Shown here: positions 11,910 to 30,466 of the stretch, one piece after another
Layout: every line of letters begins with the position of its first letter
How positions within the stretch are numbered: position 1 is the stretch's first letter
NCBI GenBank assembly: GCA_023250885.1
Contig: JAHEZV010000007.1
Location: 1 to 33,774 of the forward strand
Source of the DNA: Nitrososphaera sp.
Lineage (GTDB): Archaea; Thermoproteota; Nitrososphaeria; Nitrososphaerales; Nitrososphaeraceae
Reading direction: 5' to 3'
DNA length: 33,774 nt
Position numbers and translations under genes: made by a program
The notes under the pieces: model-generated
What the model saw: the letters and a program-made list of their open reading frames with translations, nothing else
What the model was told of the DNA's origin: nothing
Databases searched by the model: none

Positions 11910-12473
11910 ATGGCTCAGATGCCAGCACTGATACCAAAGGAAGTCGAAATCCAAAGACTGAAGAAGATCTACATCATGGTCATCATGCTGGGTTCAATTG
12001 CAGCCTCAGTAGAAGTCGACAACTTTGTTGACGGCTCGCTGCACCAGACATCAATTAGAGACAGTGCCTTTACGCCGGCTCACTGGTGGCTATACAGCCA
12101 CTTCGTAGCACTCCCACTGGGTTGGGGCTTTGTCGCAATGTACGACAGAAGGGTACCAATACTCAGGGGTCCAGGCAACTCGATGAACACCGGTCTGAAG
12201 CTGACCATCCTTGGCTATCTAGCCACGATGTTCACAATCGGTGTCAACGAGATGTGGCACTTCTGGTTCGTCGAAGAAATCTTCGCAGTTCCTAACCACT
12301 GGATGTTCAACATGGGTGTCGTCGTGGCATTCATGGGTGCTCTGGCCTACGTAGTCAGAGTATACGCCAGACTGGTGGAGCTGGGTGCAGAAACACCTGC
12401 AAAGAACCCATACGTGGCCGAGATGTACAAGCTCGCACTCGAAGGCAAGCTGTACAGCAGATCCATCCCGTAA
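11910..12473 (+). CDS. amoC: Ammonia monooxygenase subunit C
   Basis: AmoC is an integral-membrane subunit of ammonia monooxygenase. The 187-residue length and sequence are typical for archaeal AmoC. Several hydrophobic segments are visible at about residues 20-36, 58-78, 96-112 and 130-152. His117 and His130 in NEMWHFWFVEEIFAVPNHW are spaced like the copper-ligand histidines of PmoC. The ATG at 11910 follows a TATA box by about 27 bp, and a hairpin/poly-T terminator follows the gene, so amoC appears monocistronic. The codon choice is strongly biased (many GTC, CTG, ATC and AAC), in line with high expression. Nitrososphaera-type genomes often have extra amoC copies, so this may be one of several. 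Confidence 0.97.
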   Translation: MAQMPALIPKEVEIQRLKKIYIMVIMLGSIAASVEVDNFVDGSLHQTSIRDSAFTPAHWWLYSHFVALPLGWGFVAMYDRRVPILRGPGNSMNTGLKLTILGYLATMFTIGVNEMWHFWFVEEIFAVPNHWMFNMGVVVAFMGALAYVVRVYARLVELGAETPAKNPYVAEMYKLALEGKLYSRSIP

Positions 12474-21414: not shown

Positions 21415-22092
21415 CTAACCTTTTGGTTGTTCCTGGCAGCCTGGCGAAACAGGCAGGATGAATGAAAAAGTCGCCCCCTTGCCGTCTGCAAACTGATTGA
21501 CCAGCAACTCTATGACTGCCAGCAGCGGCTGTATCGGAGTCCGAAGCTCGTGCGCAGCGATATTGATAAATTCCTTCTGTATCACGTCATGCGCCTCCAG
21601 TTTTTCATTCGCCTTTGTGAGGGATTCGTTGACGCGCCTCAGCTCTTCCGTCTTTCTGTCAACCGACGTCTGCAGGCATCTGTTCCATGACAGGATGACA
21701 ATTGCTGTGCCTACTGCCTCGCTGCCAATGGCCAGAATTATTGCAGAAACAAAATAGTTGTGCTTCTGAAGAAGTGGGCATATCTCGGCTGAAACCTGGT
21801 GGGGGATAATTACATGCAACGTAAGGAAGCGCTCTCCTCTGGTCTCTACCGGCGCGAATGCTACGGTGCTTGACACTCCTGGAGAACTGGGAAAGTCATA
21901 GGAGCCCATTCTTCCTTCACGGTATTTTCGCAGCATGCGGTCGAATAGCTTATTGTTGCTGTCATCCAACGATGAAGACGTTGAAATTGCAACTATGTAC
22001 ATCTGGCTCCCGATAAACGCCAAAATGACAATCTGTTTTGCTGGCGTAATGCCTATCCGATGGCCAGACACTAAGCACAAGACTTGGCACAT
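21415..22092 (-). pseudogene. Membrane histidine kinase lacking its ATPase core
   Basis: The 225-residue product has a first hydrophobic segment (about 19-38), an extracytoplasmic sensor region of about 70 residues, and a second membrane segment (about 114-136). A coiled coil (KTEELRRVNESLTKANEKLE) and the H-box IAAHELRTPIQPLLAVIELL with His181 follow. It then jumps at about residue 198 directly to VNQFADGKGATFSFILPVS, which is the last strand of a HATPase domain. About 150 residues holding the N, G1 and G2 boxes are missing without loss of frame. It cannot autophosphorylate. It may be a pseudogene or a protein that is phosphorylated or dimerises with another kinase. A promoter-like AATATAATTTA lies about 15-20 bp upstream. 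Confidence 0.75.
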
Positions 22093-23325: not shown

Positions 23326-23606
23326 TCAACCTTTGAGCCATGGATCTTTTTTTGCCGCAAGCCCCTCTCGCCCCAGCTCTAGGAGCCTTTCCATCAGCAC
23401 GTCCGCGCCCCTGCCAAACAGGGCAGAAAATGCCGACTCGATCTTTTTCTTTGACAGGTTGGCAGGATCATAGACAGAGACGCGTGTTCCGTGTAGAGGT
23501 AGAATAGTAAAAGGACCTTCGCGTAGCCGTCGAACAAATTCAGGGTCTTTTTAAGGGCCATTTGCATCTGGATCGCTTCAACCCTGTCGACGGACTTTCT
23601 TTTCAT
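23326..23606 (-). pseudogene. Small helical signalling-type protein, frameshifted
   Basis: The gene starts MKRKSVDRVEAIQMQMALKK (ATG 23606) and goes on to YAKVLLLFYLY. It then loses frame near 23487-23500. The other frame continues GTRVSVYDPANLSKKKIESA, FSALFGRGADVLMERLLELG and ends KKDPWLKG with TGA at 23326-23328. The total of 281 nt is one base short of a 93-residue gene. The G-x-G-A motif and helix pattern match the protein at 25513-25845 (LKELVGPGAEMIIEETWEHL), so the two are paralogues. It is divergent from the response regulator. Small helical output-type domains near two-component genes are known in ammonia-oxidising archaea (NitrOD families); membership is unverified. Confidence 0.7.
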
Positions 23607-23707: not shown

Positions 23708-24229
23708 ATGAAGATACTGATAGCCGAGGATGAGCCTGACATAGCAATACAGTACGAGCTCGCACTAAAAGATCGAAATCATGATGTGACAGTCACAAAC
23801 GATGGCGAGCAGTGCCTTGAGGCATTTTATCAAGAGCTAGAAAAGCACGAACCGGCCCGCAATCCCAAGATGATGAAGCCGCCCTTTGACGCGGTGATCC
23901 TGGATTACCGGATGCCGAAAAAGGACGGGATGGAAGTTGCCAAGGAAATCCTGGCGATAGAACCAAAGCAGAGGATCCTCTTTGCGTCGGCCTATGTGCT
24001 TGAAACCTTGGTGGATTCGGTCAAGAACCTGCAGCAGGTGGTCGAACTTATCCAAAAGCCCTTCGAGCTCGATCCATTCGTAGACCTCATAGAGGACAAG
24101 GGCATCTATTCAGAACTCGAAAAGCTGAACGTGAACGCCAAGGAAATCAAGGACCTGAACCCGACGCACCAGCAGGTGCAAGATCTGCTTGAAGGGCTGA
24201 AAAAACTCCAGAAAGGCCGAGTACTTTAG
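23708..24229 (+). CDS. Response regulator, receiver domain with helical C-terminal extension
   Basis: This 173-residue CheY-like protein begins MKILIAEDEPDIAIQYELAL. The acidic pocket is at residues 7-9, the phosphoacceptor Asp66 is in VILDYRMPKKDG, a conserved Ser is in FASAY and Lys in IQKPFE. There is an insertion of about ten residues before the third strand (EKHEPARNPKMMKPP). No DNA-binding domain is present. The C-terminal tail of about 45 residues is helical (LNPTHQQVQDLLEGLKKLQK). It is likely phosphorylated by a kinase, perhaps the PAS kinase encoded convergently, whose stop codon overlaps its own by two bases. ATG 23708 is supported by promoter spacing. Confidence 0.9.
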   Translation: MKILIAEDEPDIAIQYELALKDRNHDVTVTNDGEQCLEAFYQELEKHEPARNPKMMKPPFDAVILDYRMPKKDGMEVAKEILAIEPKQRILFASAYVLETLVDSVKNLQQVVELIQKPFELDPFVDLIEDKGIYSELEKLNVNAKEIKDLNPTHQQVQDLLEGLKKLQKGRVL

Positions 24230-25407
24230 TCAGAGATAATTTTTGACTGGTCTATTGGTAGAACTATAGTAAACGTCGCTCCTCCCTCAACCCTGTTATA
24301 TGCATAGATCTTGCCCTTGTGGGCAGTCACTATCGCCTTGCTTATGAACAGACCCAGGCCAGTGCCTCCGTGGCCGTCTGTTTCTCCGACACTATTCGTG
24401 ATGAACTTACCGAACAGGTTCGGAAGAACTTGCTTTGGTATACCGGTGCCGGTGTCGCTCACCTTGATCTCGATCTTGTTCTCGTTTACAAACGCACAGC
24501 ACTCTACTTTAATGCTACCTTTCTGCGTAAACTTTATCGCATTGCCGATAACGTTGGAAAACACCTGAGTTATCCGTGACCTGTCGAGGTCGACATGCAA
24601 TTGCTTGCTTGCCTCATCAACCACAACCTCCATTGACACGTCCCTTGGTAGGTTAGCCTTCGCAGAATCTGCAACGCTTATGAACATGTCATTTATTGAA
24701 GCCTTTTCCATTTGATACGGGAGAGTATCGCTCTCAATCCTGCTAACGTCAAGGATGTCGTTTGCAAGCTGCTGGAGGCGGCGTGCTTCTTTGAGTACGC
24801 CATCCCATGCCTCCTCTTGGCCTATCTTGCCCTTCTTGGCAAGGACTGCATAACCGAGAAGAGGTTGGATTGGAGTGCGGAGTTCGTGAGAAGCAATGGC
24901 TATAAACTCGTTCTTTAGCTTCTCCTTTAGCCTCAGCTCTTCATTGGTCTTTTCGATATCTTTCTTAGTCTTGTAAATATCCGTCTGATCAATAAACTCT
25001 ATATTGCAGGCGATTACATTTCCATACTCATCATGCACCGAGACAGCGCTTAGTAGCGCCGGGAAAATCTTACCGTCCTTCCTCCTGAGCCAAATCTCAT
25101 AATTCACGACATTCCCTTCCTTCTGCCACATCTCAAGGTATTCATGCATGACGACCAGACTATTGGGATCTAACTGGTCAAATATTGACATACCAATTGA
25201 CTCTGCTCTCAAGAATCCCATACGCCTTAGGTAGGTGTCGTTGCAGTCAAGGATTATGCCTTTTCCGCTCACCGTGCAGTGGAGCGTTGGAGACTTGTCA
25301 TAAAGATCCTCAAGGATCCTGTAGGTCCTGGTGTATGGGCTTGAGCACGTGTCATCTTTTTGGGGCCTGTCCACTTTCTGCTTCAATATGGAAGTGAACG
25401 ATGACAT
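24226..25407 (-). CDS. Soluble PAS-domain sensor histidine kinase
   Basis: This 393-residue kinase has no membrane segment. A PAS domain spans about residues 30-145 (GKGIILDCNDTYLRRMGF, WLRRKDGKIFPALLSAVSV). A short coiled coil precedes the HisKA H-box FIAIASHELRTPIQPLLGY with His174. The HATPase domain has the N box VFSNVIGNAIKF, G1 SDTGTGIP and G2 GGTGLGLFISKAI. All catalytic boxes look intact. ATG 25407 or 25416 could be the start. Its end overlaps the response-regulator end, so the two genes are convergent neighbours and plausible partners. It senses a cytoplasmic signal through PAS; the ligand is unknown. Confidence 0.92.
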   Translation of the reverse strand: MSSFTSILKQKVDRPQKDDTCSSPYTRTYRILEDLYDKSPTLHCTVSGKGIILDCNDTYLRRMGFLRAESIGMSIFDQLDPNSLVVMHEYLEMWQKEGNVVNYEIWLRRKDGKIFPALLSAVSVHDEYGNVIACNIEFIDQTDIYKTKKDIEKTNEELRLKEKLKNEFIAIASHELRTPIQPLLGYAVLAKKGKIGQEEAWDGVLKEARRLQQLANDILDVSRIESDTLPYQMEKASINDMFISVADSAKANLPRDVSMEVVVDEASKQLHVDLDRSRITQVFSNVIGNAIKFTQKGSIKVECCAFVNENKIEIKVSDTGTGIPKQVLPNLFGKFITNSVGETDGHGGTGLGLFISKAIVTAHKGKIYAYNRVEGGATFTIVLPIDQSKIISD

Positions 25408-25512
25408 AATAATCATTAGCTCTTGTGTGTAAATCTTATGACATCACTAGCGTTATTGGGATTTGGCAGAGTCTGTTCTAGATACAGGTTTCGTTAATGG
25501 ACGGTGGATATT

Positions 25513-25845
25513 ATGCGGCAAGATAACAACGATCCTAGTAGTAATAACGCCCAGACTATCTTACGCCAAGCGATAGATGCCGCCATACAATCCCTAGGTG
25601 GACCGATCCACAAGACCATAATGTGGCATATGAATAACAGAGGCGTATTTTCCGATCCAAATAAAGTCGATGTTAATACCTTCTACTCTAACTTGAAGGA
25701 ACTGGTGGGGCCTGGCGCTGAAATGATAATAGAAGAAACCTGGGAGCATCTACAAAAGCACTTCGGGACAAAGGCTGGCGGTGACTTGATCAGGTCTTCA
25801 CCTCTTGAAAGAATCCAGAAAATAATGGAGATTGGTGAGGCCTGA
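25513..25845 (+). CDS. Small helical protein with G-x-G-A motif, signalling-type
   Basis: This 110-residue protein is predicted all-helical from its pattern. Notable stretches are AIDAAIQSLGGPIHKTIMWH (about 18-37), FSDPNKVDVNTFYSNLKELV and GPGAEMIIEETWEHLQKHFG (about 70-89). It is a paralogue of the frameshifted gene at 23326-23606. It overlaps or abuts the following 8-TM gene (TGA then ATG within a few bases), so the two are one operon. The family resembles small output-type modules of archaeal two-component systems (possibly NitrOD type, not verified). Start is ATG 25513; a GTG at 25504 is possible. There is no DNA-binding motif. Confidence 0.75.
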   Translation: MRQDNNDPSSNNAQTILRQAIDAAIQSLGGPIHKTIMWHMNNRGVFSDPNKVDVNTFYSNLKELVGPGAEMIIEETWEHLQKHFGTKAGGDLIRSSPLERIQKIMEIGEA

Positions 25846-25846
25846 A

Positions 25847-26656
25847 ATGGAACAGCAAGCATATCTCGAAATCAAAAGGCAGCGCAGGAACCTTGTACTT
25901 GGGCTGATAGCCGCAATAGTTGTGATAGATGCTGCAGTCTTATTTACCACGGGCTCAGAGATGGAAACATTCGTCAGCGACATTTCCAGAATTGGTACAA
26001 TATCGGCCGCAGCAATGGTGTCGTTAATAGTAGTCGGCAGGCAGAAAGTAAGCGGGCTCTTTGGAAGGGCCTACGTGTCGCTTGCTGCAGCGTTGATACT
26101 TTGGGTTGCTGCTGAGTCGATTTGGGGATACTACGAGCTTGGACTAGGAGTAGAGACTCCATTCCCGTCAATCGCAGACGCATTCTGGCTTGCAGCATAT
26201 GGTCCTTTAGGGTACCACCTGTTTACCACTGGCAAGTTTTTCGGCAAGGGAGTTAAGAAATCTGCAATAATTATAGTATCGCTAGCAGCCGCGATGTTCT
26301 TAGCATTTTACGTTCAGGCCATCATCGGCGTGTCTGACCTTGAAGGACCTGAAGCCCTTGCGGGCGTGGCGATAAGCATCGCGTACCCCGTGCTCGACGC
26401 TATCCTCATAGTCCCGGCGGTCCTCATGGTCACGAACGCTGGAAAGGGCCAGCTCACGTCCATACCTTGGATATTTGTAGGGTGGATACTCCTAGTCATA
26501 GCCGACAGCTTGCTCGGAATCACAGCTGTCACGAACTTCACTGGAGAGCTTTTCCATATCACAATGATGTACAACGCGGCATACCTGTGCTTTGCGGCGG
26601 GGCTTGTATGGTACAATAGACAGTTTATTCCCGATGAGAAAAAGCTAGCAAGATGA
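25847..26656 (+). CDS. 8-TM membrane sensor-like protein without output domain
   Basis: The 269-residue protein has about eight membrane helices, at roughly residues 15-37, 45-65, 75-95, 108-128, 136-158, 172-198, 206-228 and 234-256. The motif AESIWGYYELGLGVETPFPS followed by IADAFWLAAYGPLGYHL resembles the N-terminal membrane module of bacterial GGDEF/EAL or kinase receptors (W-x-YE ... P-S-x-AD-x-F-x-L-x-x-Y). Here the protein ends shortly after the last helix (RQFIPDEKKLAR), with no output domain. It follows the G-x-G-A helical protein with no gap, so a two-component membrane sensor split over two genes is a reasonable guess. ATG 25847 is preferred over GTG 25832, which overlaps the previous gene. 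Confidence 0.8.
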   Translation: MEQQAYLEIKRQRRNLVLGLIAAIVVIDAAVLFTTGSEMETFVSDISRIGTISAAAMVSLIVVGRQKVSGLFGRAYVSLAAALILWVAAESIWGYYELGLGVETPFPSIADAFWLAAYGPLGYHLFTTGKFFGKGVKKSAIIIVSLAAAMFLAFYVQAIIGVSDLEGPEALAGVAISIAYPVLDAILIVPAVLMVTNAGKGQLTSIPWIFVGWILLVIADSLLGITAVTNFTGELFHITMMYNAAYLCFAAGLVWYNRQFIPDEKKLAR

Positions 26657-26724: not shown

Positions 26725-26994
26725 ATGCCTACTATAACCACTGAACTTACACAGAGAGAACTGGAAGCACTAACGGAATACGCCAACCTGTGCGGGGAGA
26801 CAATATCCGACCTTGCCAGGAAGGCGTTGTTACGCGAGATTACCTTAGCCGATGGGTACGGGGCTGATGACCCTCAGTACGAATTCCACATGATCGTTCC
26901 GGCCAAAGCCGCGAGAAGCGAGGAACACAAGATCATTCAAGAAAATTACAATAAGATCAGAAGAATTTTAGGTTGGAAGGAAATAGAGCTATAA
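26725..26994 (+). CDS. Ribbon-helix-helix-like small protein
   Basis: This 89-residue protein begins MPTITTELTQRELEALTEYA and continues NLCGETISDLARKALLREI. That is a short beta strand followed by two helices, the layout of ribbon-helix-helix (CopG/Arc-type) DNA-binding proteins. A charged C-terminal half of about 45 residues may hold a partner-binding part. It lies 68 bp downstream of the 8-TM gene on the same strand. In-frame starts further upstream add a Cys-containing stretch that looks unlike the family. It could regulate its neighbours, but no operator was identified. Confidence 0.65.
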   Translation: MPTITTELTQRELEALTEYANLCGETISDLARKALLREITLADGYGADDPQYEFHMIVPAKAARSEEHKIIQENYNKIRRILGWKEIEL

Positions 26995-30359: not shown

Positions 30360-30376
30360 ATTTCGAATTGATTGAG

Positions 30377-30466
30377 CGGGCCCGTCGGGATTCGAACCCG
30401 AGACAGCCGGATTTCTTTCTATGAAAGTTAAAAGTCCGGTACTCTACCTGGCTGAGCTACGGGCCC
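30377..30466 (-). tRNA. tRNA-Lys (UUU) with a 16-nt intron
   Basis: On the minus strand the cloverleaf is complete. The acceptor stem is GGGCCCG/CGGGCCC with discriminator G. The D-arm is GCTC-AGCCAGGTA-GAGT, the anticodon stem CCGGA/TCCGG, and the T-arm TCGGG-TTCGAAT-CCCGA. The anticodon loop reads C-T-TTT-A then an intron (30413-30428) then A. The anticodon TTT is at 30430-30432. The intron ACTTTCATAGAAAGAA is at the canonical 37/38 position and folds into a CTTTC-ATA-GAAAG hairpin, as expected for a bulge-helix-bulge splicing site. No CCA is encoded. Confidence 0.93.

Follow-up and report, generated by a model that had tools for sequence, protein, structure and literature searches.

Thaumarchaeal histidine kinases are often soluble, and most response regulators of these organisms lack a recognizable output domain, which raises the question of how such abundant ammonia oxidizers link the outside to their signaling proteins. 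A two-gene unit encoding a small helical protein and a protein with eight transmembrane (8-TM) helices bears on this question. The unit lies in a 33,774-nucleotide stretch of Nitrososphaera sp. DNA (hereafter the window) from an archaeal metagenome-assembled genome (MAG) of 1.49 Mb and 95% completeness. An ORF elsewhere in the window (11910-12473, plus strand) resembles the ammonia monooxygenase subunit AmoC (NCBIfam, 3.9e-14, below the bacterial cut-off), which fits an ammonia-oxidizing archaeon; a search for signs of plasmid carriage returned none.

The helical protein (110 aa; 25513-25845, plus strand) and the 8-TM protein (269 aa; 25847-26656, plus strand) are both intact ORFs, with the ATG of the second located one base past the TGA of the first and a Shine-Dalgarno-like GGTGAG within the helical gene, a few bases 5' of that ATG. 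Divergent from the pair lies a gene for a soluble PAS-HisKA-HATPase histidine kinase (24226-25416, minus strand; Pfam), in which no TM-like segment was found, and beside it one for a response regulator consisting of a REC domain and a C-terminal tail of about 45 aa (23711-24229, plus strand; Pfam Response_reg, 3.4e-13). A small DUF6290/RHH-like protein (26725-26994, plus strand; Pfam DUF6290, 2.4e-6; start placed by aligning relatives) is encoded downstream. It is usually retained with the two-gene unit, being present in L129, L130, L189 and L192 and absent from L190 and L191. The back-to-back arrangement and the flanking kinase and regulator described in the earlier note are thus borne out, while its claim of a helical paralog beside the response regulator (23326-23606, minus strand) holds as to homology and fails as to an uninterrupted gene. 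The C-terminal half of that copy matches an intact ortholog (L130:657-917; tblastn, 69% over 32 aa, E 6e-12), but only one frame is matched, the N-terminal half lying in another. This second NitrOD5-like gene is a frameshifted remnant (a pseudogene) or a copy mis-sequenced in the MAG, yet it derives from a real gene; the intact ortholog adjoins the same regulator in L130, and an equivalent gene is found beside the regulator in G121. The L130 record (LDIY01000028.1) bears the name candidate division TM6 bacterium SOIL31. With its synteny to Nitrososphaera, an 8-TM protein 63% identical to that of the window and the same regulator and kinase, it is mislabeled or contaminated.

To the helical protein, AlphaFold2 assigned an all-alpha model on its family alignment (pLDDT 80.8), and the G-x-G-A motif originally reported for it was found as G-P-G-A, with G66 conserved in at least 90% of 45 family members. 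The protein has no match in Pfam (none at E ≤ 1) or NCBIfam and does not reach the gathering score of NitrOD5 (PF11537), which 10 of its 45 aligned relatives do match (best, 1.7e-7). Profile-profile comparison restricted to the Nitrososphaera copies and the 10 proteins fetched by the PF11537 model yielded a probability of 95.9 (E 5.3e-9, 68 columns), in agreement with the earlier guess of a NitrOD family. Judged by these profile matches, the helical protein is a distant member of the NitrOD5 superfamily, sharing the conserved F/L-G-x-(G/A) core but itself falling below Pfam detection. Galperin et al. (2018, PMC5847659) describe NitrOD5 as an output domain of archaeal REC proteins that is stand-alone or REC-fused in thaumarchaea and assign it to a "Death domain-like" family; the family considered here is likewise a small all-helical domain, stand-alone or REC-fused and multicopy in thaumarchaea. 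Foldseek comparison of the model with the PDB retrieved nothing significant, only chance globin-like matches, and at the sequence level the helical profile matches PDB 2p9x (PH0832; E 4.5e-5). A profile iterated from the genus copies converged on a large archaeal family. Of 200 genomes sampled from the class, 117 contain it, with up to 19 copies per genome, both stand-alone and as REC fusions (e.g. L026, L086, L118-L122).

For the membrane protein, AlphaFold2 modeling on the family alignment produced exactly eight long helices (mean pLDDT 90.8, pTM 0.89), matching the number first proposed. The loops on one side carry 1.3-3.6 Lys+Arg each, against 0.1-0.6 on the other, and this asymmetry places both termini in the cytoplasm (N-in/C-in). 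Five residues are invariant (D111, Y118, Y180, D184, D220) and four nearly so (W86, E90, W93, Y246), all of them located in the middle-to-outer half of helices 3, 4, 6, 7 and 8. No Pfam family covers the module in any of 41 members, NCBIfam holds no entry for it, and comparison with PDB chains returned no solved structure even at E 10. Among the candidate identities considered, DUF3188, TcpE and MRH scored far below their Pfam cut-offs. A seven-helix receptor of the GPCR/rhodopsin kind was rejected as well (best Foldseek E 0.057, TM-score ≤0.48, rmsd ~8 Å), the model suggesting a loose helical-bundle resemblance only. MASE1 (PF05231) matched none of the 41 members in Pfam and reached a probability of 0.1 in a profile comparison for which the MASE1 alignment comprised just 3 rows.

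Relatives of the 8-TM protein are encoded by 91 of the 200 genomes sampled from the class. In bacteria, the first matches were GGDEF or GGDEF-HD proteins, and direct comparison of the archaeal and bacterial profiles (hhalign probability 99.7, E 1.6e-25, 213 columns), together with the A-D, Y and D invariants common to the archaeal and actinobacterial copies, makes the homology secure. The actinobacterial module is fused N-terminally to GGDEF, GGDEF-EAL and GGDEF-HD; Actinoplanes harbors 19 copies, and all ten proteins scanned (nine from Actinoplanes, one from Phytohabitans) contain GGDEF, some of them also EAL or PAS. Within the archaea, some Nitrosopumilaceae modules are fused N-terminally to HisKA-HATPase. 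This N-terminal place ahead of several output enzymes identifies the 8-TM domain as a sensor (input) module, and the window protein comprises nothing beyond it: whereas the Actinoplanes and Phytohabitans proteins continue into a cyclase or phosphodiesterase, it stops after helix 8, upholding the proposal that it resembles the N-terminal sensing module of receptors and ends after its last helix. E. coli DgcE offers a working precedent for the adaptor idea, as a membrane input module that reads a soluble partner: the soluble GTPase RdcA docks on its MASE1 domain (PMC6510439), likewise a multi-TM N-terminal input module but without sequence relation to the 8-TM domain. Nitrososphaeraceae outside the genus often carry an extracytoplasmic ligand-binding domain (Peripla_BP_6/ANF_receptor) after the 8-TM module, and fusions of this type were noted in L011, L014, L016-L020, L022, L023 and L025.

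Pairing of the two genes was assessed in loci fetched solely for their 8-TM gene. A helical gene lies directly upstream of 9 of the 12 solo 8-TM genes in the genus and of 27 of the 43 in Nitrosopumilaceae (28 if L101 is included), while a single one of 27 fused 8-TM genes has one in that position. The intergenic gap is between -14 and +12 bp in 49 of 55 pairs. The adjacency that was to be checked in other ammonia-oxidizing archaea is conserved and deep: it is kept in the genus and in Nitrosopumilaceae/Nitrosotalea, and in Bathyarchaeota and one further archaeon (L141, L143, L145, L147) the order is reversed, with the helical gene directly downstream. Distance matrices of the two families correlate over the 55 pairs (r = 0.84). 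Swapping partners within genomes, a test limited to those holding several paralogous pairs, gave a mean r of 0.70 and a maximum of 0.826, with 0 of 5000 swaps reaching the observed value, and orthology was concordant in 22 of 23 clear quartets. The two genes hence co-diverge as units. On the tree of the 8-TM module, in which bacterial placement is uncertain due to long branches, the paired state changes about 10 times. Nitrososphaera and Nitrosopumilaceae each contain large clades of paired genes, and Bathyarchaeota form the group with reversed order. Together, these data establish a strong genetic link between the helical and 8-TM genes.

The genes surrounding the pairs connect them to two-component signaling. 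Synteny of the genes for regulator, PAS kinase, helical protein and 8-TM protein extends over all seven Nitrososphaera loci of the window's subtype (the window, G109, G132, G136, G121, L129 and L130), with the kinase divergent from the pair in each; the six relatives retain the kinase at 45-71% and the regulator at 56-94% identity. A conserved association of the pair with kinase and regulator was found in these seven loci; 29 of 53 pairs have no kinase or regulator within 2.5 kb. In six Nitrosopumilaceae loci (L026, L067, L070, L082, L086, L091) a response regulator encoded directly upstream of the 8-TM gene carries the helical domain at its C-terminus. In L124 (1492-2796; Pfam) that position is taken by an AAA ATPase of the CbbQ/NorQ type that ends in a NitrOD5-like domain, an architecture also assigned by matching layout to L194-L196, the four genomes belonging to one Nitrosopumilaceae genus; pilin/archaellin-like genes follow the AAA/8-TM unit in L194-L196. 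Another Nitrosopumilaceae genus has seven loci in which the gene transcribed divergently from the pair encodes a HisKA/HATPase kinase whose N-terminus is composed entirely of tandem near-identical 11-residue repeats (NAQEDAARMLK type), variable in number and coiled-coil in nature (L068:5625-6485, L073:1254-2129, L074:1393-2256, L075:4692-5561, L076:5404-6399, L105:5751-6599, L165:1909-2916). No PAS or TM segments were found in these kinases, which are apparently devoid of a sensor. The arrangement resembles canonical two-component membrane kinases in that the pair has a conserved kinase and regulator as neighbors and some relatives are themselves 8-TM histidine kinases, but differs from them in that sensor, adaptor and kinase are here separate polypeptides. 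The conserved pairing and the seven-locus context thus lend support to the initial suggestion of a membrane signaling system with sensor and output on separate proteins.

We propose, with a probability of roughly 0.6, that the unit encodes a split membrane receptor in which an 8-TM sensor and a NitrOD5-like adaptor feed a two-component circuit. The 8-TM protein would act as the membrane sensor, its conserved acidic and aromatic outer-half residues binding a small ligand or an ion located outside the cytoplasm or in the membrane, and its state would be relayed via the cytoplasmic face to the co-encoded NitrOD5-like protein. Through direct contact with the sensor, the latter would serve as a docking adaptor controlling a soluble two-component pair, which at the window locus would be the neighboring PAS kinase and REC regulator; the signal would run from membrane to kinase, with the helical protein probably coupling the two. 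Gene pairing, co-divergence, the N-terminal position of the module, the REC and AAA fusions, the kinase/regulator synteny and the sensor-less kinases count in favor of the split receptor. Counting against it, many solo 8-TM genes have no helical neighbor (none was seen in the Nitrosocosmicus-like and Nitrosocaldus-like genomes sampled), the helical domain is multicopy and mostly occurs without an 8-TM gene next to it, and the counts are not independent because the genomes are related.

NitrOD5-like domains have been on record since 2018, and input modules with several TM helices are likewise an established class; pairing of stand-alone NitrOD5 copies with an 8-TM protein was not found in the open-license part of the full-text literature, and the available portion of PMC5847659 makes no mention of it. 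With this pairing, a candidate receptor and adaptor become available for signaling in ammonia oxidizers, and NitrOD5-like proteins of the stand-alone kind acquire a partner. It also delineates a sensor domain that neither Pfam nor NCBIfam covers and that stands at the N-terminus of many actinobacterial c-di-GMP enzymes as well; the 55 natural pairs constitute material for testing the split-receptor hypothesis. Covalent fusion, to a kinase or GGDEF domain, and the adaptor appear to be largely alternative ways of connecting the module. At somewhat less than even odds, we tentatively extend the proposal to an archaeal class of split receptors not described before, in which a module shared with bacterial c-di-GMP enzymes would have been freed from its output and interchangeable NitrOD5-like adaptors (free, REC-fused or AAA-fused) would re-wire it to soluble kinases, some of them sensor-less.

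Signal flow toward the 8-TM protein is also conceivable, since NitrOD5 is named as an output domain and REC fusions exist, and this too counts against the split receptor. The 8-TM protein would then be a target on which a phosphorylated regulator docks, directly or via the NitrOD5-like domain, to tune transport, a channel or receptor sensitivity. The definition in PMC5847659, by which NitrOD5 serves REC proteins as an output domain, and the position of REC-helical fusion genes directly upstream of 8-TM genes agree with a target role, which we nevertheless regard as unlikely, though the most credible of the alternatives: an input role is the natural one for a module that stands N-terminally in GGDEF, EAL and histidine kinase proteins, kinases without a sensor adjoin the pairs, and the conserved outer-half pocket suits sensing.

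Less probable still is that the helical protein is a chaperone or subunit required for assembly or stability of the 8-TM protein, without signaling and with coincidental kinase and regulator neighbors. One-to-one operon pairing of overlapping or abutting genes would equally suit a structural subunit, as would the 29 pairs lacking a nearby kinase or regulator, but the REC and AAA fusions of the helical domain point to signaling, the regulator-kinase context is conserved in seven loci, and a pure stability factor leaves unexplained why fused 8-TM proteins have no helical partner. Conserved gene order between functionally unrelated genes, conceivable insofar as related genomes inherit order and helical-family genes are widespread among these archaea, is largely refuted by the reversed order in Bathyarchaeota, the within-genome swap test, the recurrence of pairing in separate 8-TM clades and the missing helical gene beside fused 8-TM genes, and we consider it very improbable.

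Three further observations concern NitrOD5-like genes and the window at large. In families of the class other than that of the window, stand-alone NitrOD5-like genes (L040:1483-1794, L042:1474-1788) lie directly 3' of genes identified by eye as encoding KaiC-like ATPases, a possible other partner type for stand-alone NitrOD5-like proteins. The window also contains a histidine kinase remnant (21415-22092, minus strand) in which HisKA is directly joined to the end of HATPase with the middle absent, as in what looks like an internal deletion. Finally, an ARAGORN tRNA call with a "stop" anticodon, tta (30376-30466, minus strand), is probably a mis-read tRNA (intron or pseudogene).
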